This document shows positions 22,420-49,282 of a stretch of 64,000 bases of DNA, one piece after another. This stretch comes from Chloroflexota bacterium (GTDB taxonomy: Bacteria > Chloroflexota > Dehalococcoidia > Lucifugimonadales > Lucifugimonadaceae), in assembly GCA_002717385.1 (NCBI GenBank), contig PBDR01000030.1, forward strand, positions 1-64,000. Direction: 5' to 3'. Position numbers and translations under genes: made by a program. The notes under the pieces were generated by a model that had not been told where the DNA came from, made no database searches, and saw nothing but the letters and a program-made list of their open reading frames with translations. Positions within the stretch are counted from its first letter, which is position 1. Each line of letters opens with the position of its first letter.

Positions 22420-23238
22420 ATGTCAAATAAAACAATAGTAATAGCTGAAGCTGGTGAAAACCACTGTGGAAACATACAACTTGCATATGATTTAATTGAC
22501 ATGTCGGCTCGGGCAGGATGTGACTATGTTAAATTTCAACTCTATGATGCTGCAAAAGCATCCTCCTCTGATCCAGAAAAAGAATGGTTCAAGAAGGTAG
22601 AAGTTTCTGATGCAATGTGGAACGATTTAATCGATTACTCAAAAAAAGCTGGCATCCTACCATTAGCAACACCATGGGATAAGGAAAAAGCTGAAGTTAT
22701 TCTCAAATCCGGTGCAACAGCCATTAAAATTGCCTCATTTCATATTGTTGACCTTGAATTGTTACAATTCGTAAATGCTAATTTCAATAGAGTATTTTTA
22801 TCAACAGGAATGTCCTCGATTAATGAAATTGAAAGAGCTGTTGAAGCTTTAAAAGATGTCAAAGAACTATTCGTGCTTCATTGCGTATCTGAGTATCCTC
22901 TTCCACCTGAAAACGTGAATTTAAATATCATTTCAACATTACAGAATAAATTTCCAAATGTATCTGGTATAGGGTATTCAGACCATACCATCGGGATATT
23001 TGCTCCAGTTTTGGCAGTTTCTATGGGAGCTAAAGTAATCGAAAAACATATTACTACTGATAAAAATTTAGAAGGAACTGACCATATTTTATCTGCAGAT
23101 GGAACCGAATTACCAGAAATGGTACGTCAAATACGATTGGCTGAAACCATGCTCGGTACAAACGAAAAACAACTCACAGCTTCTGAAAAAGAAAATCAGG
23201 AGTTTCTCCGAGAGCGTTTTCATAATGTGCCTACCTAG
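22420..23238 (+). CDS. NeuB-family nonulosonic acid synthase, short form without SAF domain
   Basis: IVIAEAGENHCGNIQLAYDLID; DYVKFQLYD; ATPWD; IKIASFHIVDLELL; LSTGMSS; LHCVSEYP; GYSDHTIG; IEKHIT. Confidence 0.85.
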   Translation: MSNKTIVIAEAGENHCGNIQLAYDLIDMSARAGCDYVKFQLYDAAKASSSDPEKEWFKKVEVSDAMWNDLIDYSKKAGILPLATPWDKEKAEVILKSGATAIKIASFHIVDLELLQFVNANFNRVFLSTGMSSINEIERAVEALKDVKELFVLHCVSEYPLPPENVNLNIISTLQNKFPNVSGIGYSDHTIGIFAPVLAVSMGAKVIEKHITTDKNLEGTDHILSADGTELPEMVRQIRLAETMLGTNEKQLTASEKENQEFLRERFHNVPT

Positions 23239-29892: not shown

Positions 29893-30900
29893 ATGGACAT
29901 CCAGTATTCACTCTACAACAGCATAATTTCTAAGCCCCCAATATTTATTGCAGAAATTGGAGGAAATCATAATGGAGATGTGGTTTTAGCCCAAAAAATG
30001 ATAGATGCTGCCATTTCATCTGGTGCCCAAATTATAAAATTTCAAACGTATTCAATGTCTGATTTTGTTTCTAAAGATCATATTTCCTATGACGTTTTTG
30101 CTCAAGAAAACCTAACATATGAAGAATTTGCAGGACTAGCAAATTATTGCAAGCAAAAGAATGTAATATTTCTCTCAACCCCATTCGACGAAAAAAGCGT
30201 AGATTTCTTGGACGATCTTGGGATTCCCGCCTTCAAAATAGCATCAGGTGATTTAACCCACATTAAACTTATTCGCTATATAGCGAAAAAAGACAAGCCT
30301 ATTTTTCTTTCTACTGGAGCTTCTACATGGCAAATGATTGATGAAGCGGTAAATAGCATAACAAATTTAACAAACTCCCAACTTGCCTTGCTCCATTGTG
30401 TAGCGGCATATCCTGCACCAGATAACGAAACGAATTTATCACTTATTAATGAATTGCAAAATCGTTACGGTAAAACAACTGGCTTTTCAGATCATAGCTT
30501 AGGGATCGACGTAAGTCTGGCTGCAATTGCACTTGGTGCTCAAATCATTGAAAAACATTTCACTATTGACCGATCATTGCCAGGTGGAGATAACGATATT
30601 TCAATATTGCCAAATGAATTAAAACAAATGATTGATTCTGCAAATCGAATTATCCTAGCAATTGGATCATGTGAAAGAACTCCTACTGACTCAGAAATGG
30701 AAATTGAAAATCTGATCCGAAGAGGCTTAATAGTAACTAAAAGCCTTAAGACTGGAGATGTATTATCATTAGGTGACATATCTGCAGTTCGACCAATAAT
30801 AGGCATCCCAGCCAATGAAATCGATAACATCGTGGGAAAATATATTAACAAAGATCTTAAAGAAATGTCTCCAATTCAATGGGATGATATATCTAATTAA
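29893..30900 (+). CDS. NeuB-family nonulosonic acid synthase with C-terminal SAF domain
   Basis: IFIAEIGGNHNGDVVLAQKMIDAAISSGAQIIKFQTY; FKIASGDLTHIKLI; FSDHSLGIDVSLAAIALGAQIIEKHFTID; RRGLIVTKSLKTGDVLSLGDISAVRPIIGI. Confidence 0.93.
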   Translation: MDIQYSLYNSIISKPPIFIAEIGGNHNGDVVLAQKMIDAAISSGAQIIKFQTYSMSDFVSKDHISYDVFAQENLTYEEFAGLANYCKQKNVIFLSTPFDEKSVDFLDDLGIPAFKIASGDLTHIKLIRYIAKKDKPIFLSTGASTWQMIDEAVNSITNLTNSQLALLHCVAAYPAPDNETNLSLINELQNRYGKTTGFSDHSLGIDVSLAAIALGAQIIEKHFTIDRSLPGGDNDISILPNELKQMIDSANRIILAIGSCERTPTDSEMEIENLIRRGLIVTKSLKTGDVLSLGDISAVRPIIGIPANEIDNIVGKYINKDLKEMSPIQWDDISN

Positions 30901-30979: not shown

Positions 30980-31765
30980 ATGGTTAAACTATGTGTTCCT
31001 GAAACTGATATTTTTCGCCGAAATAAACATGATCTGTTACCGCTTGTTTCTGGATTATCATTCAAACAACCAAACAATGAAGAGTATCCTGGGAAAGAAT
31101 TGATGCTTGAATGTTCATTAAATATAGGAAGTCCTAATTTCCTATCTGAATTAGCTAACTTAGGATTACTCGAAGCACTAAAAAGCAATCGTTTCACTTC
31201 TTTTGCATGCGATATTGGACCTGCATGGGAAACGTTTATTGAAAACGGCAAATCACCCAACGGCTACCCAAGATATTTACCTGGAACCAATCCATTAAGT
31301 GATGAAAAATATATTGAATTTGGAAAAGATAATATAGCTTTTATAAGAAATAATTTTGATGGGTTAATTAAGGTTGAAAACCTAAACTATTTCGATACCG
31401 GAGCATATGAACGCGTATGCGAACCTGAATTTATTTCAATGATCATTAATGAATTAGATATCGAACTGCTCTTAGATATTGGACACTTAATTATATGTGT
31501 TAAGAATATGAACATACCTCTTGAGTCTTATCTTGATGATATTCCATTAAATACAATTTCAGAAGTTCAAATAAGTGGATCAAATATTGTTAATGGTGTT
31601 TTGGAAGACACGCACGAAATACCTAGTGAAACAGATATGGAAATACTTGATCATATACTTTCTAGGATTAAACCAAAATATCTTACGTTAGAATATTACA
31701 AAAATGATCAGGCACTGATAAAAGGATATAGGGATTTAGAAAAATGGTTACAGAATCGGGAATGA
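30980..31765 (+). CDS. DUF692/MNIO-like TIM-barrel protein (distant)
   Basis: IKVENLNYF...EPEFISMIINELDIELLLDIGHLIICVKNMNIPLESYLDDIPLNTISEVQISGSN...LEDTHEIPSETDMEILDHIL resembles the DUF692 C-terminal half. Confidence 0.5.
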   Translation: MVKLCVPETDIFRRNKHDLLPLVSGLSFKQPNNEEYPGKELMLECSLNIGSPNFLSELANLGLLEALKSNRFTSFACDIGPAWETFIENGKSPNGYPRYLPGTNPLSDEKYIEFGKDNIAFIRNNFDGLIKVENLNYFDTGAYERVCEPEFISMIINELDIELLLDIGHLIICVKNMNIPLESYLDDIPLNTISEVQISGSNIVNGVLEDTHEIPSETDMEILDHILSRIKPKYLTLEYYKNDQALIKGYRDLEKWLQNRE

Positions 31766-31772
31766 AAATCAA

Positions 31773-33413
31773 ATGAAATTTGTTTTTTGTGGTGATAAAG
31801 ATATAGCGGTCTTATGTCTAGAAGAACTTGTTAATCAAGGTGAAGAAATATCTGCAGTATTTGCACTTCCTTCAGGATACTGGAGTCAGATTTCAGAAGA
31901 AGATCAAAAAAATGATTGGTATCAGTCATTAGAAAGATTTGCTAAATCAAAAAATATTCCAACGTATTGCCCAGAAAATATTAATGACAATAAATATGTT
32001 GATATTATTAAAGCTTTAGAACCTGACGTTTTATTTTCGATATCATGGGATCAGATGATAGATGAAACCATTCTCAAAATACCCAAGATTGGGGCGTTCA
32101 ATATGCATGGTTCTTTACTACCTGAAAACCGAGGGCATGCGCCACTTAATTGGTCATTAATAAAAGGGTATACAAACACAGGTGTTACAATGCACAGAAT
32201 GACTAGAAAGGCAGACCAAGGAACAATTGTAAAACAACAACAAGTACCTATCTCATTCACAGATTCTGCCAATCTTTTATATAAAAAACTCGTCAAAGCA
32301 CAATTTTCAGTTTTTAAGAATTTTCTTGAAGACATTCTTACAGATTCAATTACAGAATTTGAACAAAATCATGGTATGAGCACCTACGGGAAAAGGCGAA
32401 AACCTATTGATGGTAACATTGATTGGAATCAATCAGGTTTTGATATATATAACTTTATAAGAGCTTTAGGGAAACCTTATCCAGGAGCATTTACTTATTT
32501 TCGCGGAAAAAAACTTTTTGTATGGAATGCAACACTCTATGAAAATTATTCACAGCAAAGATCTGAAGGAACAATAATTGACTGCATAATTCCAAATACA
32601 ATAAGAGTTCAATGCAATAAAGGTTCAGTTTTACTTACTAATGTCCAGTTTGAAAATGAAAACGCAATGGTTTCTTCAGAATTCCTTAATGCCTTAGAAA
32701 TCAATATTGGAGAAACATTGACCCAGAATAATTCACAGGGTAAGGATACAAAAATTTACGATATGAACATATGGAGACATATGGAATTCTATCAAGGAAG
32801 ACTTACTTCAAGAGTTAGAAATGAAGAACCTGCTTTGGACTGTGAGCTTCAATGTTATGAAATTCTAAAACCTCTATTACAACCTCACATGAAATTATTG
32901 GATGCTGGATGTGGAACTGGATATTACTATCGAACATTACAACCACTGAACATTGATTACTATGGGATTGATAGTTGTCCAGAATTTATACATGCAGGAC
33001 AAAAAGAAATTCATAGATATGGTTTGTCTCCAAAAAAACTTCGCATAATGGATATGGAGGATTTAACTGGTGAGAAATATGACTGTGTAATTGCTATTAA
33101 TTCATTACTTTATTGTTCAAATTACCATGTAGCATTAGACAGACTTCTCAACGCAACATCAAAATACTTACTTATTAGAACTCTTCTAGGAGATTCAACT
33201 ATATATCGATATGAAGAAGATGGATATCTTGATGAAGGTTATAACCATTTAAAATCACATTTTAATATCTATTCCATAAATGAAATGAGCGAGTTTATAT
33301 CAGAACGAGGATTTAAAGTTACACATATAGTCGACCAACACACACAGGACATACCTGAAATGGTCATTGGTAAAATCCATCCCTGGAGAATTCTACTCTG
33401 CGAAAGGGAATAG
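31773..33413 (+). CDS. Fusion: ArnA-type sugar N-formyltransferase + SAM-dependent methyltransferase
   Basis: FNMHGSLLPENRGHAPLNWSLIKGYTNTGVTMHRMTRKADQGTIV (formyltransferase) and MKLLDAGCGTGYYYRTLQPLNIDYYGIDSCPEFI (methyltransferase motif I) in one uninterrupted ORF. Confidence 0.85.
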   Translation: MKFVFCGDKDIAVLCLEELVNQGEEISAVFALPSGYWSQISEEDQKNDWYQSLERFAKSKNIPTYCPENINDNKYVDIIKALEPDVLFSISWDQMIDETILKIPKIGAFNMHGSLLPENRGHAPLNWSLIKGYTNTGVTMHRMTRKADQGTIVKQQQVPISFTDSANLLYKKLVKAQFSVFKNFLEDILTDSITEFEQNHGMSTYGKRRKPIDGNIDWNQSGFDIYNFIRALGKPYPGAFTYFRGKKLFVWNATLYENYSQQRSEGTIIDCIIPNTIRVQCNKGSVLLTNVQFENENAMVSSEFLNALEINIGETLTQNNSQGKDTKIYDMNIWRHMEFYQGRLTSRVRNEEPALDCELQCYEILKPLLQPHMKLLDAGCGTGYYYRTLQPLNIDYYGIDSCPEFIHAGQKEIHRYGLSPKKLRIMDMEDLTGEKYDCVIAINSLLYCSNYHVALDRLLNATSKYLLIRTLLGDSTIYRYEEDGYLDEGYNHLKSHFNIYSINEMSEFISERGFKVTHIVDQHTQDIPEMVIGKIHPWRILLCERE

Positions 33414-39466: not shown

Positions 39467-40225
39467 ATGATTTGTGCACTGATGCTTGGTAGAGAAAATA
39501 GTTCTGGGTTTCCTGGTAAAAACACATACCCTCTTTTAGGAAGACCAGTGATGTACTATCCATTAACAGCAGCAATTAATTCAAAACATATTGATAAAGT
39601 TTATGTTTCTACCGATTCGCCAACCATAAAAGGCATAACAAGAGAATACGGATGCGAAGTTATCGATCGGCCACCAGAATTATGTACTGACGAAGCTTTA
39701 GGTGAAGATGCATATGTTCACGGACATAATTATATTAAAGAACTCTTAAAAGAATCCCAGTCAGAACTGGAACTCCTTGTCCTATTAATGTGCAATGCTG
39801 TAACTGTTTCTTCAGAACTTATAGATGAGGGAATTCGAATTCTACTTAGTAGACCTGATCTTGATTCTGCAGTAACCGTATCAAGATATAACATGTGGAG
39901 TCCATTAAGAGCTAGAAAAATTGATGATGCCGGCTTGTTACAACCCTTCGTTCCTTTCGAAACATTCGGAGATCCAGCAACTCTCAATTGTGATCGCGAT
40001 TCACAGGGCGACGTTTATTTTGCTGATATGGGAACTTCGATTGTAAGACCTCATTGCATAGAAAATATTGAAACGGGTTTGCTTCCACAAAAATGGATGG
40101 GAAACAATATATACCCTTTAATACAAACAGGTGGTTTAGACATCGATTACGAATGGCAATTACCTGCTGCTGAACATTGGCTGCGAACGAATGGGCATAC
40201 TGAACCTTTTAAAACCACAGGATGA
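39467..40225 (+). CDS. Acylneuraminate cytidylyltransferase family protein (NeuA-like)
   Basis: ALMLGRENSSGFPGKNTYPLLGRPVMYYPLTAAINSKHIDKVYVSTDSPTI. Confidence 0.88.
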   Translation: MICALMLGRENSSGFPGKNTYPLLGRPVMYYPLTAAINSKHIDKVYVSTDSPTIKGITREYGCEVIDRPPELCTDEALGEDAYVHGHNYIKELLKESQSELELLVLLMCNAVTVSSELIDEGIRILLSRPDLDSAVTVSRYNMWSPLRARKIDDAGLLQPFVPFETFGDPATLNCDRDSQGDVYFADMGTSIVRPHCIENIETGLLPQKWMGNNIYPLIQTGGLDIDYEWQLPAAEHWLRTNGHTEPFKTTG

Positions 40226-43046: not shown

Positions 43047-43814
43047 ATGCAAGTAGTAATTCTCTGTGGCGGTTTTGGCACTAGGCTTGGCGAAGCAACA
43101 GAAACGCGTCCTAAACCTATGATTGAAATCGGCGATTATCCGATTGTGTGGCATATTATGAAAAGTTATTCTCATTTTAATTTTTCTGACTTCATATTGT
43201 GTCTTGGGTACAAAGGTCAAATGATCAAGGATTATTTTTTAAATTACTCACATATAAATAACGACCTGAAATTGGACCTTTCGTCAGGATCAGTAAATAT
43301 TGTTAATACAAATACACCTCTTAATTGGGAAATAACGCTTGCAAATACCGGATTGAATTCAATGACGGGTTCAAGGGTTAAACAAATTGAACACTATATA
43401 GAAGGTCCTGAATTTATGCTTACATATGGTGACGGTGTAACTGACCTAAATATTCAAGAATTAGTAAATTTCCATAGAAGTCACGGTAAAATAGGAACAG
43501 TTACCGCAGTATCTCCTTCTTCTCAATATGGAGAACTTGAGATCAATAATAATCAAGTAGTTTCCTTTCAAGAAAAACCTGATTCTAACTCCTCATTTAT
43601 TTCAGGAGGGTATTTCGTTTTCAATAGAGAGTTTTTTGATTATTTAAGCACTGATGAAAATTGCGTTTTAGAAAAAGAACCACTTGCTAACTTAGCAAAA
43701 GATGGTGAATTAATGGTCTATACTCACAATGGTTTTTGGCAATGCATGGATACTCCACGGGACGTTTCCTATCTGCGAAATCTATGGCAAAACAATCCGG
43801 CATGGAAAAGATAA
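43047..43814 (+). CDS. rfbF: Glucose-1-phosphate cytidylyltransferase
   Basis: MQVVILCGGFGTRLGEATETRPKPMIEIGDYPIVWHIMKSYSHF; MLTYGDGVTDLNI; FWQCMDTPRD. Confidence 0.95.
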   Translation: MQVVILCGGFGTRLGEATETRPKPMIEIGDYPIVWHIMKSYSHFNFSDFILCLGYKGQMIKDYFLNYSHINNDLKLDLSSGSVNIVNTNTPLNWEITLANTGLNSMTGSRVKQIEHYIEGPEFMLTYGDGVTDLNIQELVNFHRSHGKIGTVTAVSPSSQYGELEINNNQVVSFQEKPDSNSSFISGGYFVFNREFFDYLSTDENCVLEKEPLANLAKDGELMVYTHNGFWQCMDTPRDVSYLRNLWQNNPAWKR

Positions 43815-44792
43815 ATGACTAATTACTGGGAAAATCGAAATGTACTTGTAACTGGATGTACTGGCTTTCTGGGTTCATGGCTTTGCGAAGAATTAATAAA
43901 TGCAAAAGCTAATGTTGTAGGAATCATCCGTGACTGGGTTCCAAAGTCTCGATTGCTATCTGAAAATATGACATCTTCTATGACCAGTGTGCGTGCTCCG
44001 ATAGAAGACTTATCCGCTATCGAAAGAACCATCAATGAATACGAAATCGAAACTGTTTTTCATTTAGCCGCCCAGACTATTGTCGGTACTGCAAATCGCG
44101 ATCCAGTCGGAACTTTCGAAACAAACATAAAAGGAACATGGAATCTATTAGAAGCATGCCGCCGAATAGGTTCTGTAAAAAATATCGTAGTAGCTTCAAG
44201 TGATAAAGCGTATGGCATTCAGGAAAATCTCCCCTATGACGAAACAATGAATCTTAATGGCAATTTTCCTTATGACGTATCGAAGGCTTGTACGGATTTA
44301 CTCGCTCAATCGTATTATGCCTCATTCGAACTTCCAGTTTGCATTACTCGATGTGCAAATTTTTATGGAGGAGGGGATCTGAATTTCAATAGGTTGGTAC
44401 CTGGAACAATTATGTCCTTGCTTCGTGGAGAAAATCCTATTATACGCTCAGATGGAAGCTATATTCGAGATTATCTTTATATTAAAGATGCAGCTAGAGC
44501 ATGCATGAAACTTGCTGAAAAAATGGAAACATCTGAGATTAAAGGTGAGGCCTTTAACATTAGTAGTGAAGTCCGATGTAGAGCTGATGAATTAGTTCAT
44601 CACATCACTACAATTATGGGATTAGAAAATCTACAACCAATAATTCAAAATCAAGCTAGTAGAGAAATACCTCATCAATATCTATCATCTAAAAAATCAA
44701 TGGATTTATTGGAATGGAAACCTGCATACTCTCTTGAACAAGGCCTTATCGAGACAATCTATTGGTACGAAAAATTCTATAAGGAGAATTAG
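43815..44792 (+). CDS. rfbG: CDP-glucose 4,6-dehydratase-like extended SDR
   Basis: WENRNVLVTGCTGFLGSWLCEELINAKANVVGIIRD; FHLAAQTIVGTANRDPVGTFETNIKGTWNLLEA; SSDKAYG; adjacent to rfbF. Confidence 0.85.
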   Translation: MTNYWENRNVLVTGCTGFLGSWLCEELINAKANVVGIIRDWVPKSRLLSENMTSSMTSVRAPIEDLSAIERTINEYEIETVFHLAAQTIVGTANRDPVGTFETNIKGTWNLLEACRRIGSVKNIVVASSDKAYGIQENLPYDETMNLNGNFPYDVSKACTDLLAQSYYASFELPVCITRCANFYGGGDLNFNRLVPGTIMSLLRGENPIIRSDGSYIRDYLYIKDAARACMKLAEKMETSEIKGEAFNISSEVRCRADELVHHITTIMGLENLQPIIQNQASREIPHQYLSSKKSMDLLEWKPAYSLEQGLIETIYWYEKFYKEN

Positions 44793-44796
44793 CAAC

Positions 44797-45246
44797 ATGA
44801 TTGAAGGCGTAATCATTACACCTTTAAGGCGTATCCCCGATGAAAGGGGAATGGTGATGCATATGATGAGAAAAACCGATCATCATTTTTCAGAATTTGG
44901 TGAAATCTATTTCTCCACAATATATCCTGGTGTAGTAAAGGGTTGGCATTTACACAAAAAAATGGTTCTGAATTATGCAGTAGTTCACGGGATGATTAAA
45001 CTTGTCTTATATGACGATCGTGAAAATTCTCCAACAAAAAATGAAGTCCAGGAAATATTCTTAGGTGAAGAAAATTATTCTTTGGTTACTATTCCTGCAA
45101 ATGTATGGAACGGTTTCAAAGGAATTGGAACAAAAGATTCTATTGTGGCAAATTGTTCAACTATCCCCCACGACCCAGAAGAAATTGTTCGCATGGATCC
45201 CTTTGAAAATAATATCCCCTACAATTGGAACCTCAAGAACGGATGA
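44797..45246 (+). CDS. dTDP-4-dehydrorhamnose 3,5-epimerase-like (RmlC/cupin) protein; listed ORF starts 44734
   Basis: MIEGVIITPLRRIPDERGMVMHMMR; YPGVVKGWHLHKKM; IPANVWNGFKGI. Confidence 0.85.
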   Translation: MIEGVIITPLRRIPDERGMVMHMMRKTDHHFSEFGEIYFSTIYPGVVKGWHLHKKMVLNYAVVHGMIKLVLYDDRENSPTKNEVQEIFLGEENYSLVTIPANVWNGFKGIGTKDSIVANCSTIPHDPEEIVRMDPFENNIPYNWNLKNG

Positions 45247-45252
45247 AATGAC

Positions 45253-46227
45253 TTGTCAGCGAATCACTCGAAAACGATATTAATAACTGGAGGGCTCGGG
45301 TACCTGGGGGGAAGAATCGCAAATTACATAACTGAAAATGAATCAGAGTACCTACTAAAAATCTCCACCACAAGATCAATCATTAATCAACCAGAATGGT
45401 TGTCAAACGCAGAAATAATCCCCCTAGAGCTTAGTAATGTCGATAAAATAACGAGTTCTCTAGCAGATGTAGAAATTGTAATACATCTGGCAGCAATTAA
45501 TGAAATTGTTTCTGTTGAAAACCCTGAACTCGCTTTTCAGGTTAATACAATAGGAACATATAACTTACTAGAAGGTTGTAGGCGTGCAGGAGTAAAAAAA
45601 TTTATTTATCTATCAACCATTCATGTATACGGTCCTAATGATGGTGAACCTATCACTGAATCATCGATTACAAAACCCATACACCCCTACGCAATAACAC
45701 ATAGAGCAGCCGAAGATATCGTAAACTGGTATCATAATTCGTATGGATTAGAATCACTCGTATTAAGGCTTTCTAATGGCTTTGGGTATCCAATGGATCC
45801 TGATGTAGACAGATGGAGTCTTGTATTCAACGATTTTTGTTATCAGGCAATTAATGATCGTAAAATTCAATTACAGTCAAGTGGCAAACAACACAGGGAC
45901 TTTATAACTATACACGACATATGCAGAGCAATCGCACATTTCCTAAAGTTACATTCTGAGAAATGGGATAATGGGATTTTTAACTTAGGAGGCGAAAACT
46001 CAATGTCAATAATTGATGCAGCTGAACTAGTAAGTAAAGAATATAGCAAACAGTATGGAACTCTTTTAACCATTACAACGGTAAGTGATCAAGGAAAAAC
46101 ATTTCCTAAACCTGTGGTATTTGATATCAGTAAATTGAAGAAAACCGGGTTTACATTACGTAACGATATATCTAATGAAATCCAACAAACTTTTAAAATA
46201 GCAGAATTACGTAAGCAAAATTTTTAG
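45253..46227 (+). CDS. NAD-dependent epimerase/reductase; TTG start
   Basis: KTILITGGLGYLGGRIANYI; STIHVYGPNDGEP; YAITHRAAEDIV. Confidence 0.88.
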   Translation: MSANHSKTILITGGLGYLGGRIANYITENESEYLLKISTTRSIINQPEWLSNAEIIPLELSNVDKITSSLADVEIVIHLAAINEIVSVENPELAFQVNTIGTYNLLEGCRRAGVKKFIYLSTIHVYGPNDGEPITESSITKPIHPYAITHRAAEDIVNWYHNSYGLESLVLRLSNGFGYPMDPDVDRWSLVFNDFCYQAINDRKIQLQSSGKQHRDFITIHDICRAIAHFLKLHSEKWDNGIFNLGGENSMSIIDAAELVSKEYSKQYGTLLTITTVSDQGKTFPKPVVFDISKLKKTGFTLRNDISNEIQQTFKIAELRKQNF

Positions 46228-46230
46228 CAT

Positions 46231-46265
46231 TCTGATGAAATAAAGAAATAGTTGATTTTATCAGA
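46231..46265. terminator. Candidate bidirectional terminator between convergent genes
   Basis: tctgatgaaat / attttatcaga arms (one wobble) between stops at 46227 and 46261. Confidence 0.4.
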
Positions 46266-47634
46266 TTCCCAAGCCGTAATATTCAAATCCACTTTCAGTA
46301 ACAAAATCTCGATCAAGCATATTTCTTCCATCAAAAATTATTGGTGTTTTCATTACTTGAAATAATTTAGACAGATCTTGTTCTTTAAATTGAGGCCAGT
46401 CAGTCAAAATCAAAACACCATTAGAATCCACAGCTGCGTCTATTGGATCACTTGCAAACGAAATTAATTCAGAAGTTCCTATCTGGTTCTTGAATACCGG
46501 CATTGCTAAAGGATCATATAATCGTAATTTCGCATATTCTTCTATCAATTTATTAATTATGTTAATGGCAGGAGAATTTCGAATTTCATCTGTATTAGGT
46601 TTAAACGCCAAACCCCATACAGCAAAACTCATGTCTTTAAGATTTGGTAATGTGTCTTTTATTTGAGATAGATAAACGGTAACTCTGTTATCATTAACTT
46701 TTTGAACCTCTTCCAATATGGAAAAATTAACTCCATTGGTTTTTCCAGAATCAATAAATGAATTCAAATCTTTTGGAAGACACTCCCCTCCATAACCGAT
46801 TCCTGCCTTCAAAAAGTCAGTGCCAATTCTTGGATCAGCCCCTATTGATCTAGATACAGAATCTATATTAGCACCAACTTTTAAGCATAAATCTGAAACC
46901 ATATTTATAAATGAAAGTTTAGTAGCCAAAAAGGAATTAGCAGCATTTTTCGATATTTCAGCGGAACGTGTATCTGTAAAAATCATTAAATCTTGTTCTT
47001 CTTTTCCGATCTTTTGAAATAAAGGCATGTATAAATTAATTATTGTTTCCTTTAAACTCATATCATCTAACCCTACAACAATTCTTTGCGGATTAAAGAA
47101 ATCTTCTATGGCTTTCCCTTCCCGCAAAAATTCAGGTATAACCACAACATCTACAAATTTATCAGCAGATTGAACTTCTTCATTTTCCTTTGGTTGGGAA
47201 AGGATAATGCGAATTTTTTCAGCAGTATTTACGGGGGTTGTACTTTTTTGAATAACAATCTTATAACTTTTTATACTATCTCTTAATTGATATGCTAAAT
47301 TTTCAATTTGTGAAATATCAGCAGAACCATCCTTGTATTCAGGGGTAGCAACACAAATAAACAATATATCTGCTTGATTGACCGCCCAGTTAGAATCTGA
47401 ACTAACAACGAACTTGTCTGATTTCAGATGTTTTTTCAGTAAAGAATCCACTCCATCTTCAAAAAAAGGCACATGTCCTTTAGTTAGAGATTCTACCTTA
47501 CTCCTATCAGAGTCTACACCAATAACATTCCATCCTAAATCTGCAAATCCCAAGGCTGTTGGCAGCCCCACATGGCCTAATCCAAATACGGCAAGCGTCA
47601 TATTGGTTTTATGATTCATATTTATTAATCCCAT
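46261..47634 (-). CDS. UDP-glucose/GDP-mannose dehydrogenase family protein
   Basis: LAVFGLGHVGLPTALGFADLGWNVIGVDSDRSKVESL; GIGYGGECLPKDLNSF; FAVWGLAFKPNTDEIRNSPAINII. Confidence 0.93.
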   Translation of the reverse strand: MGLINMNHKTNMTLAVFGLGHVGLPTALGFADLGWNVIGVDSDRSKVESLTKGHVPFFEDGVDSLLKKHLKSDKFVVSSDSNWAVNQADILFICVATPEYKDGSADISQIENLAYQLRDSIKSYKIVIQKSTTPVNTAEKIRIILSQPKENEEVQSADKFVDVVVIPEFLREGKAIEDFFNPQRIVVGLDDMSLKETIINLYMPLFQKIGKEEQDLMIFTDTRSAEISKNAANSFLATKLSFINMVSDLCLKVGANIDSVSRSIGADPRIGTDFLKAGIGYGGECLPKDLNSFIDSGKTNGVNFSILEEVQKVNDNRVTVYLSQIKDTLPNLKDMSFAVWGLAFKPNTDEIRNSPAINIINKLIEEYAKLRLYDPLAMPVFKNQIGTSELISFASDPIDAAVDSNGVLILTDWPQFKEQDLSKLFQVMKTPIIFDGRNMLDRDFVTESGFEYYGLGI

Positions 47635-47707: not shown

Positions 47708-49282
47708 CTAAGCATCAGGTTCTAATATCACAGCATTAATAGTTTCATTACTAGAAATACATATCCCATCCGTCCAAAGATCATATTCCCATCTATGTCT
47801 TGGACAAATCAAAAACCTCTCTTCTCTGATTTCGCCTTCACTAAGATCTGAACCTTGATGAGGACAATATTTGTCCACAGAATAAAGATTACCACCTGCT
47901 TCTACAACTATGCGATCAGTTCTTTGTTCAAGACCTAATAAATAGTTACACAAATGGTTTACATCTTCAACCTCCATTACTACAAAACCAATAACTAGCG
48001 TTTGATAAACATCAGGTTTTCTATTCATTATTTCCCTAAAGGTTAGCATCATATCTTCCCAAGTTATTCTTCCTGAAACTGCACGAGATAATTGCCAGCC
48101 AGGTACTTTTATCGAATAATAATTTTCATCATAAATCTCTTCAGTCTTTTCTATTTTCTTTGAGAAAAAATCAATTCGAATCCAATCATTTTCAATTTCT
48201 GTAGTTCCAAGATAAAGTGGTCTTGTAATTCGATGATTTAGACTAAAATTCTCAATTTTAGCTTCAAGTATTTGAATAAGGTCAGAAAAAAGCTTGTCTG
48301 GATCTGTAGGAAAATTTTCTTTTTGAAAACGATTGAAATACTCTGCATATTCCTTTGAATATTTATACACATAGTCTTGGAACGATTCGATTCTTTGGCG
48401 TAGATCTAAATCCTTTTTAAAGACTCCAGATTTAACATTAAGCATTTCACCGGGAAGCAATTCATCACATTGGATATTGTCATCTTTAGGATATCGATTC
48501 AAGTATTCCAAAAACTCTGGAGCCCTCGGGAAAGGACTGTCTTCCTGAAAATTGATACCCATAAGATTAGAATCAAGGAAAACCGGAGGTCCTGCAGCCG
48601 CAAGATAATATTGTGGATTTACCTTTGCAATTACTCGAGCAACGTTAGTAAATTTAGAAAATTTTTTACTTCTAGAAATTCTCCTATATTCCTTTTCGTC
48701 ATACTGATAACAAACAGGGTGCCAACTGGCACCTGAAAATTGGCAAGAAAAAACATCAGGTCTGCCCCAACGATCAAGAATCCAAGGTATGCGATCATAT
48801 AACTTGCAATCGTTTATATTTAAAAATGAGCTTTTATCAGATTCAAGTAAGATTCCTGAATCTCTGTTCAGCTCCTGATCATCAACAAAAATAGTTACAG
48901 TGCAACCTTCCAGTGAAATAGATTTGCCATCCTCAAATAGAATGAGGGACTTTGAATTAAAATTTTGTATCCTATCCAATAACTCCGTTCTTCTATATTT
49001 AGGTATAAGAAAAGTTATTTGACTAGTGTCAATATTATTTAAAGTAAACTCATCGAAATGGTCTTTATGCTCATGACTAATGTACAGATAAAATTCTTTG
49101 TCTCTAACTGCAAGTCGATCCTGAACTTCAGAAAGCATATGATGATTTCGCGGGTACTGAAACCAGGAAGAATCAAAGGCACCGAATGGTGATAACCAAG
49201 GGTCCATAATCACTACTGACTTTTCAAGTTCAACCATAAATCCTGCATGACCAAGGGATGTAATTTGCATTAAATACTCCAT
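47708..49282 (-). CDS. MBL-fold + C-terminal Rieske protein, CMAH-like (CMP-N-acetylneuraminate monooxygenase-like); start 49282 or 49270
   Basis: VVIMDPWLSPFGAFDSSW, LYISHEHKDHFDEFTL (HxHxDH), RDSGILLESDKSSFLNINDC; Rieske ligands CPHQG...CPRHRWEYDL. Confidence 0.8.
   Translation of the reverse strand: MEYLMQITSLGHAGFMVELEKSVVIMDPWLSPFGAFDSSWFQYPRNHHMLSEVQDRLAVRDKEFYLYISHEHKDHFDEFTLNNIDTSQITFLIPKYRRTELLDRIQNFNSKSLILFEDGKSISLEGCTVTIFVDDQELNRDSGILLESDKSSFLNINDCKLYDRIPWILDRWGRPDVFSCQFSGASWHPVCYQYDEKEYRRISRSKKFSKFTNVARVIAKVNPQYYLAAAGPPVFLDSNLMGINFQEDSPFPRAPEFLEYLNRYPKDDNIQCDELLPGEMLNVKSGVFKKDLDLRQRIESFQDYVYKYSKEYAEYFNRFQKENFPTDPDKLFSDLIQILEAKIENFSLNHRITRPLYLGTTEIENDWIRIDFFSKKIEKTEEIYDENYYSIKVPGWQLSRAVSGRITWEDMMLTFREIMNRKPDVYQTLVIGFVVMEVEDVNHLCNYLLGLEQRTDRIVVEAGGNLYSVDKYCPHQGSDLSEGEIREERFLICPRHRWEYDLWTDGICISSNETINAVILEPDA

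Follow-up and report, generated by a model that had tools for sequence, protein, structure and literature searches.

A predicted MBL-Rieske hydroxylase of the NamH/CMAH type in a putative surface-glycan locus of a Chloroflexota bacterium

The locus described here raises a key question: what does a protein that joins a metallo-beta-lactamase (MBL) fold and a Rieske domain in one chain do among the sugar-nucleotide genes of a Chloroflexota bacterium, and on which sugar would it act? The window, i.e., the whole stretch of 64,000 nucleotides that was analysed, carries the gene as a single 524-aa open reading frame from 49282 to 47708 on the minus strand. Plus-strand reading of the same interval was ruled out by 28 stops, and alignment of the homologous family suggests that Met5 is the true translation start. 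The first-pass annotation had described the product as a CMAH-like protein with reversed domain order and, from surrounding NeuB/NeuA genes, had proposed a hydroxylase of CMP-nonulosonates or another nucleotide sugar. The features of the locus are presented in Table 1.

Table 1 Features of the MBL-Rieske gene and its locus (positions of the window)
Feature	Position	Strand	Evidence
NeuB-family nonulosonate synthase 1 (predicted)	22420..23238	+	TIGR03569 E 1e-71, under equivalog cut-off
NeuB-family nonulosonate synthase 2 (predicted)	29893..30900	+	TIGR03569 E 1e-95, TIGR03586 E 2e-84, both under equivalog cut-off
PseF/NeuA-like CMP-sugar cytidylyltransferase	39467..40225	+	TIGR03584 E 2e-17, under equivalog cut-off
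rfbF	43047-43814	+	TIGR02623 321 bits, over cut-off
rfbG-like CDP-glucose 4,6-dehydratase	43815-44792	+	TIGR02622 204 bits, under cut-off
Cupin-type isomerase	44734-45246	+	within 43047..46227 module
SDR epimerase	45253-46227	+	within 43047..46227 module
Nucleotide-sugar 6-dehydrogenase (UDP-glucose dehydrogenase/TuaD-like)	46261..47634	-	TIGR03026 399 bits vs cut-off 190
MBL-Rieske protein, predicted NamH/CMAH-type sugar-nucleotide N-acetyl hydroxylase	47708..49282	-	524 aa, likely start Met5
Rieske [2Fe-2S] domain, C-terminal, residues 457-510	47753..47914	-	PF00355
Central region, ~residues 315-455, colinear with SCP2-like domain of Rv3818/NamH	47918..48340	-	full-length NamH-only profile alignment
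MBL-fold domain, N-terminal, ~residues 5-290	48413..49270	-	Pfam Lactamase_B_3, profile matches, Foldseek
HEHKDHFD metal motif (H70, H72, D74, H75, D77)	49052..49075	-	conservation among homologs

The Rieske domain was recognised by Pfam with an E-value of 8e-11 (42 bits versus a cut-off of 20), and the ligand set, which had been read as complete from the letters, is so: C473-P-H475-x17-C493-P-R-H496 (CPH-x17-CPRH) agrees with the CxH-x15-17-CxxH Rieske pattern, and all four ligands are present in 112 of the 113 Rieske-bearing homologs. The MBL match (PF13483, residues 6-98, E 1e-4, 22.4 bits) is under the cut-off of 24 for the window protein alone and over the cut-off in its nearest relatives. 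The N-terminal MBL fold, proposed originally from the HEHKDH motif, was confirmed by an AF2 model and Foldseek. The model (pLDDT 92.9, pTM 0.92) was built with an alignment of 21 related sequences, two plasmid sequences being left out. Both Pfam and the model place the MBL domain at the N-terminus and the Rieske domain at the C-terminus of one chain, and this combination is real and well beyond chance.

Mycobacterial NamH is Rv3818, a UDP-MurNAc hydroxylase that converts the N-acetyl to the N-glycolyl group. A homolog from Mycobacterium triplex was treated as NamH on the basis of its length (516 aa), its SCP2_Rv3818 domain and its flanking genes, whose arrangement we take to be the Rv3813c-Rv3819 order. 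A profile made from the NamH clade only covers residues 5-513 of the window protein colinearly, with an i-E-value of 4e-66 (Z set to 1e6), at an identity to NamH of ~25%. The SCP2_Rv3818 domain (PF25451), which lies between the MBL and Rieske domains, was matched in 15 of 21 relatives and not in the window protein, the middle region of which gave no significant match to the NamH profile when searched alone but aligns colinearly as part of the full-length match. In the window clade, this central domain is too diverged to be recognised by itself. As for the domain order, it is opposite to that of vertebrate CMAH, in which the Rieske domain is N-terminal, as the first-pass annotation had it, and the beta-lactamase-like domain C-terminal (PMC8227644). 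However, NamH already has an N-terminal UlaG domain and a C-terminal Rieske domain (PMC10050696), and the same order was seen in the 113 homologs collected; therefore, the order of the window protein is not a new permutation, and its novelty was rejected.

In the tree, the window protein groups with a Bacteroidota MAG protein (L036, ~44-45% identity) and a Paenibacillus rigui protein (L037, 42%) with a support of 99/96, and a Ramlibacter protein (L038, 31%) joins this clade with a support of 100/100. The NamH side forms a separate clade of 18 rows (100/99), and the window protein lies outside it. The architecture is known, and the window protein belongs to a branch apart from NamH; we know of no characterised member of its own clade. 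If the protein were a NamH orthologue that modifies UDP-MurNAc for peptidoglycan, the shared domain order and full-length homology would be expected, but this reading is highly improbable, because it conflicts with the tree and with the gene content of the host. The genome that carries the window, 86% complete, yielded no MurB (the control search was positive in 10 of 14 reference genomes), and the only protein of the Mur ligase family found there is FolC. Judging from these searches, the Chloroflexota host seems to be without peptidoglycan and UDP-MurNAc is an unlikely substrate; NamH orthology was rejected. In plasmids of Rhodococcus ruber and Nocardia (L031:4751-7551, L033:740-7554), NamH-type genes lie near extra murB copies, adjacent and divergent in the Rhodococcus plasmid; this proximity suits the known function of NamH, UDP-MurNAc hydroxylation.

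Another important question is to which MBL proteins the N-terminal domain is related. Residues H70, H72, D74, H75, D141 and D158 are invariant in all 131 homologs, and D77 is invariant in alignment A2. D134, which aligns with CmlA residue 377, varies across homologs, and no conserved His was found in the segment of the 131 homologs aligned with this residue; the metal ligands were assigned by sequence alignment. Profile searches among solved structures placed FrsH (E 2e-12) and CmlA (E 4e-10) nearest, with hydrolases weaker, and Foldseek likewise gave FrsH as the nearest fold (E 2.6e-12), followed closely by UPF0173 and NAPE-PLD hydrolases. The UlaG/UPF0173/NAPE-PLD subgroup was thus also matched, but FrsH and CmlA were nearer. 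The BFVD fold search returned generic MBL proteins only, and the searches of solved structures found no full-length relative of CMAH. The profiles and the model support a grouping of the MBL domain with MBL-fold oxygenases, nearest to the diiron enzymes FrsH and CmlA. Together with the NamH-profile match, this bears out the proposed kinship to CMAH-type hydroxylases and supports the placement of the window protein in the NamH/CMAH-type group; in the literature, CMAH and NamH are regarded as distant homologs (PMC6481270).

The best explanation, to which we give a probability of roughly 0.6, is that the window protein is a Rieske-coupled MBL-fold non-heme iron monooxygenase of the NamH/CMAH type that hydroxylates the N-acetyl group of a sugar nucleotide for a surface glycan. 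We infer that electrons from a reductase would pass through the Rieske [2Fe-2S] cluster to an iron site in the MBL domain, formed by H70, H72, D74, H75, D158 and a nearby carboxylate, where O2 would be activated. The methyl of the N-acetyl group on a nucleotide-activated sugar would be hydroxylated at this site, and the product would be an N-glycolyl sugar bound for the surface glycan of the cell. To our knowledge, the characterised MBL-Rieske enzymes are NamH and CMAH, both acting on N-acetyl. The sugar-nucleotide gene context of the locus supports this explanation; counted against it is the CDP-glucose/methyltransferase cluster of the Paenibacillus relative, which need not contain an N-acetyl sugar.

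By its gene content, the window locus probably makes a surface glycan. Two NeuB-family synthases occur in it along with several CMP-sugar cytidylyltransferases, all 7 to 25 kb from the MBL-Rieske gene and none over an equivalog cut-off, and from 21 to 46 kb it is otherwise on the plus strand; the MBL-Rieske gene and the dehydrogenase that follows it 73 bp downstream form a minus-strand pair, likely on one transcript. The best PDB matches of the dehydrogenase are UDP-glucose dehydrogenases. This dehydrogenase and, on the opposite strand, the rfbF/rfbG CDP-glucose module are the nearest neighbours of the MBL-Rieske gene. The NeuB/NeuA surroundings noted at first are thus present at some distance, the PseF-like gene lying 7.5 kb from the MBL-Rieske gene and the NeuB-family synthases ~17 and ~24 kb from it, on the opposite strand. 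A promoter scan was uninformative, with 17 candidates versus 17.4 expected, and GC near the gene (~0.33) is like that of the remainder of the locus, therefore giving no island signal. Two genes in the cluster of the second NeuB-family synthase are of separate interest: 30980-31765 encodes a TIM-barrel protein with a weak match to the ApyH multinuclear iron oxidative enzyme (65 bits versus a cut-off of 400), and in 31773-33413 a sugar formyltransferase-like domain is fused to an apparent SAM methyltransferase-like C-terminal half.

Surveys of relatives provided a broader view of the neighbourhoods. No NeuB or NeuA was found near the homologs in any of 80 cellular loci, with flanks of up to 10 kb and many short contigs; judged over the same 10 kb, the window would itself yield the PseF-like gene alone. 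NeuB was undetected in the genomes of six of the eight cellular relatives tested (L036, L038, L003, L004, L017 and L039), two of which are among the three nearest relatives of the window protein (L036 and L038); it is present in P. rigui (on a different contig from the homolog), Kribbella and two viral contigs. Consistent linkage of the homologs to neuB/neuA, as might be expected from the first-pass annotation, was accordingly not found in cellular loci, but several viral contigs of marine type do show linkage. In L119 and L122, Rieske-bearing homologs lie ~4-8 kb from neuB/neuA. As a separate observation, four viral contigs (L119, L120, L122 and L127) encode a full MBL-Rieske protein ~26-30% identical to the window protein amid long sugar-nucleotide runs including DegT, SDR, NeuB, CMP-transferases and glycosyltransferases. 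Three other viral homologs of ~410-420 aa without a Rieske domain (L133:7995-9248, L135:8001-9263 and L137:3412-4635) are located immediately 3' of neuB, with a 4-bp overlap in L135, and terminase-like genes occur near some of them; these proteins may represent a phage enzyme that modifies nonulosonates and belongs to the same MBL group. Haloarchaeal homologs without Rieske were also detected (L034, L035 and L097), and that of L034 lies ~5 kb from polysaccharide-cluster genes for a nucleotide-sugar dehydrogenase, Gfo/Idh and DegT.

Which sugar nucleotide, then, would be hydroxylated? Of the candidates, a UDP-N-acetylhexosamine(uronate) or a CMP-nonulosonate made by the same locus is the likeliest. 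That the enzyme is paired with the adjacent dehydrogenase and acts on a UDP-N-acetylhexosamine or uronate can be proposed tentatively: the isolated minus-strand pair is consistent with it, as are the surroundings of the haloarchaeal L034 homolog and the Ramlibacter cluster, in which the gene directly follows an amidotransferase-like gene and is accompanied by genes for a WecC/VipA-type dehydrogenase, Gfo/Idh, an acyltransferase and an aminotransferase, a set that we read as a UDP-GlcNAc3NAcA pathway. However, the dehydrogenase of the window resembles a UDP-glucose dehydrogenase more than a UDP-HexNAc one, and the gene pair was not seen in the Paenibacillus and Bacteroidota relatives, the latter having uninformative surroundings in two genomes. 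Hydroxylation of the N-acetyl group of a CMP-nonulosonate (CMP-Leg, CMP-Pse or CMP-Neu type), which would make the protein a bacterial counterpart of CMAH in function, is a more doubtful proposition. It stays in consideration because the locus has NeuB-type genes along with CMP-sugar cytidylyltransferases and some viral homologs lie beside neuB (near neuB/neuA in L119 and L122, right behind neuB in L133, L135 and L137), but the distance and opposite strand of the NeuB genes, the 80 cellular loci and the relatives with no detectable NeuB argue against it. The nonulosonate substrate proposed at first is therefore weakly supported and is not our default reading.

It is also conceivable, and rather unlikely, that the oxygenase acts on another methyl or CH of a sugar, e.g., the 6-deoxy or C-methyl of a CDP-sugar, instead of N-acetyl. 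CmlA and FrsH have amino acids as substrates and their hydroxylation is not on N-acetyl groups; therefore, the MBL oxygenase fold is versatile. An rfbF/rfbG pair, moreover, is found near the window gene and flanks that of the 42% identical Paenibacillus relative. Against this, the CDP-glucose genes are not common to the Bacteroidota (L036) or Ramlibacter (L038) relatives, and both NamH and CMAH act on nucleotide-sugar N-acetyl groups (PMC6481270).

Homologs are widespread in Actinomycetota, including Mycobacterium, Nocardia and Rhodococcus, and occur in 36 of 399 sampled Chloroflexota genomes, and the ones whose full sequence was read share the domain order. Within the class to which the window belongs, a match at an E-value of 1e-20 or better was obtained in only 3 of 393 genomes, the window genome included, which points to horizontal acquisition of the gene. 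A survey of Paenibacillaceae for further close relatives yielded one genome of 106, the starting genome itself, and phage records searched for homologs gave no match.

According to a review, reports of N-glycolyl groups are almost confined to Neu5Gc and N-glycolylmuramic acid (PMC6481270). A NamH-type enzyme outside peptidoglycan synthesis would suggest overlooked N-glycolylation of other surface sugars in bacteria and possibly viruses. The MBL-Rieske family also offers bacterial proteins for studying the cooperation of the MBL iron site and the Rieske cluster, which is relevant to CMAH. The more specific proposal, a NamH-type CMP-nonulosonate hydroxylase that would supply a Chloroflexota bacterium without peptidoglycan with N-glycolyl sugars of the legionaminic/pseudaminic type, is improbable on present evidence; if true, it would provide an N-glycolyl nonulosonate route outside the CMAH lineage.

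Among known systems, NamH (Rv3818/MSMEG_6410) has its domain order, its metal and cluster ligand motifs and nearly its length (516 versus 524 aa) in common with the window protein, which differs in its low identity, its separate clade, the unrecognised SCP2_Rv3818 domain and, unlike the NamH setting, a host with no detected MurB or Mur ligases. The diiron MBL-fold beta-hydroxylases CmlA and FrsH (PDB 4jo0, 5kil and 8a90) are the nearest solved structures to the MBL domain and share the HxHxDH motif and an Asp near position 158; they have no Rieske domain and a different N-terminal domain, and in the family of the window protein the carboxylate at the position of CmlA residue 377 is variable. 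The UlaG, UPF0173 and NAPE-PLD proteins (Lactamase_B_2 and B_3) belong to the same MBL subgroup according to Pfam and Foldseek, but they are hydrolases without Rieske and their profile matches are weaker than those of CmlA and FrsH. Vertebrate CMAH, the CMP-Neu5Ac hydroxylase, was compared by its published description only: its order is reversed, but it combines the same two modules, Rieske and MBL-like, and the window protein likely performs the same chemistry.
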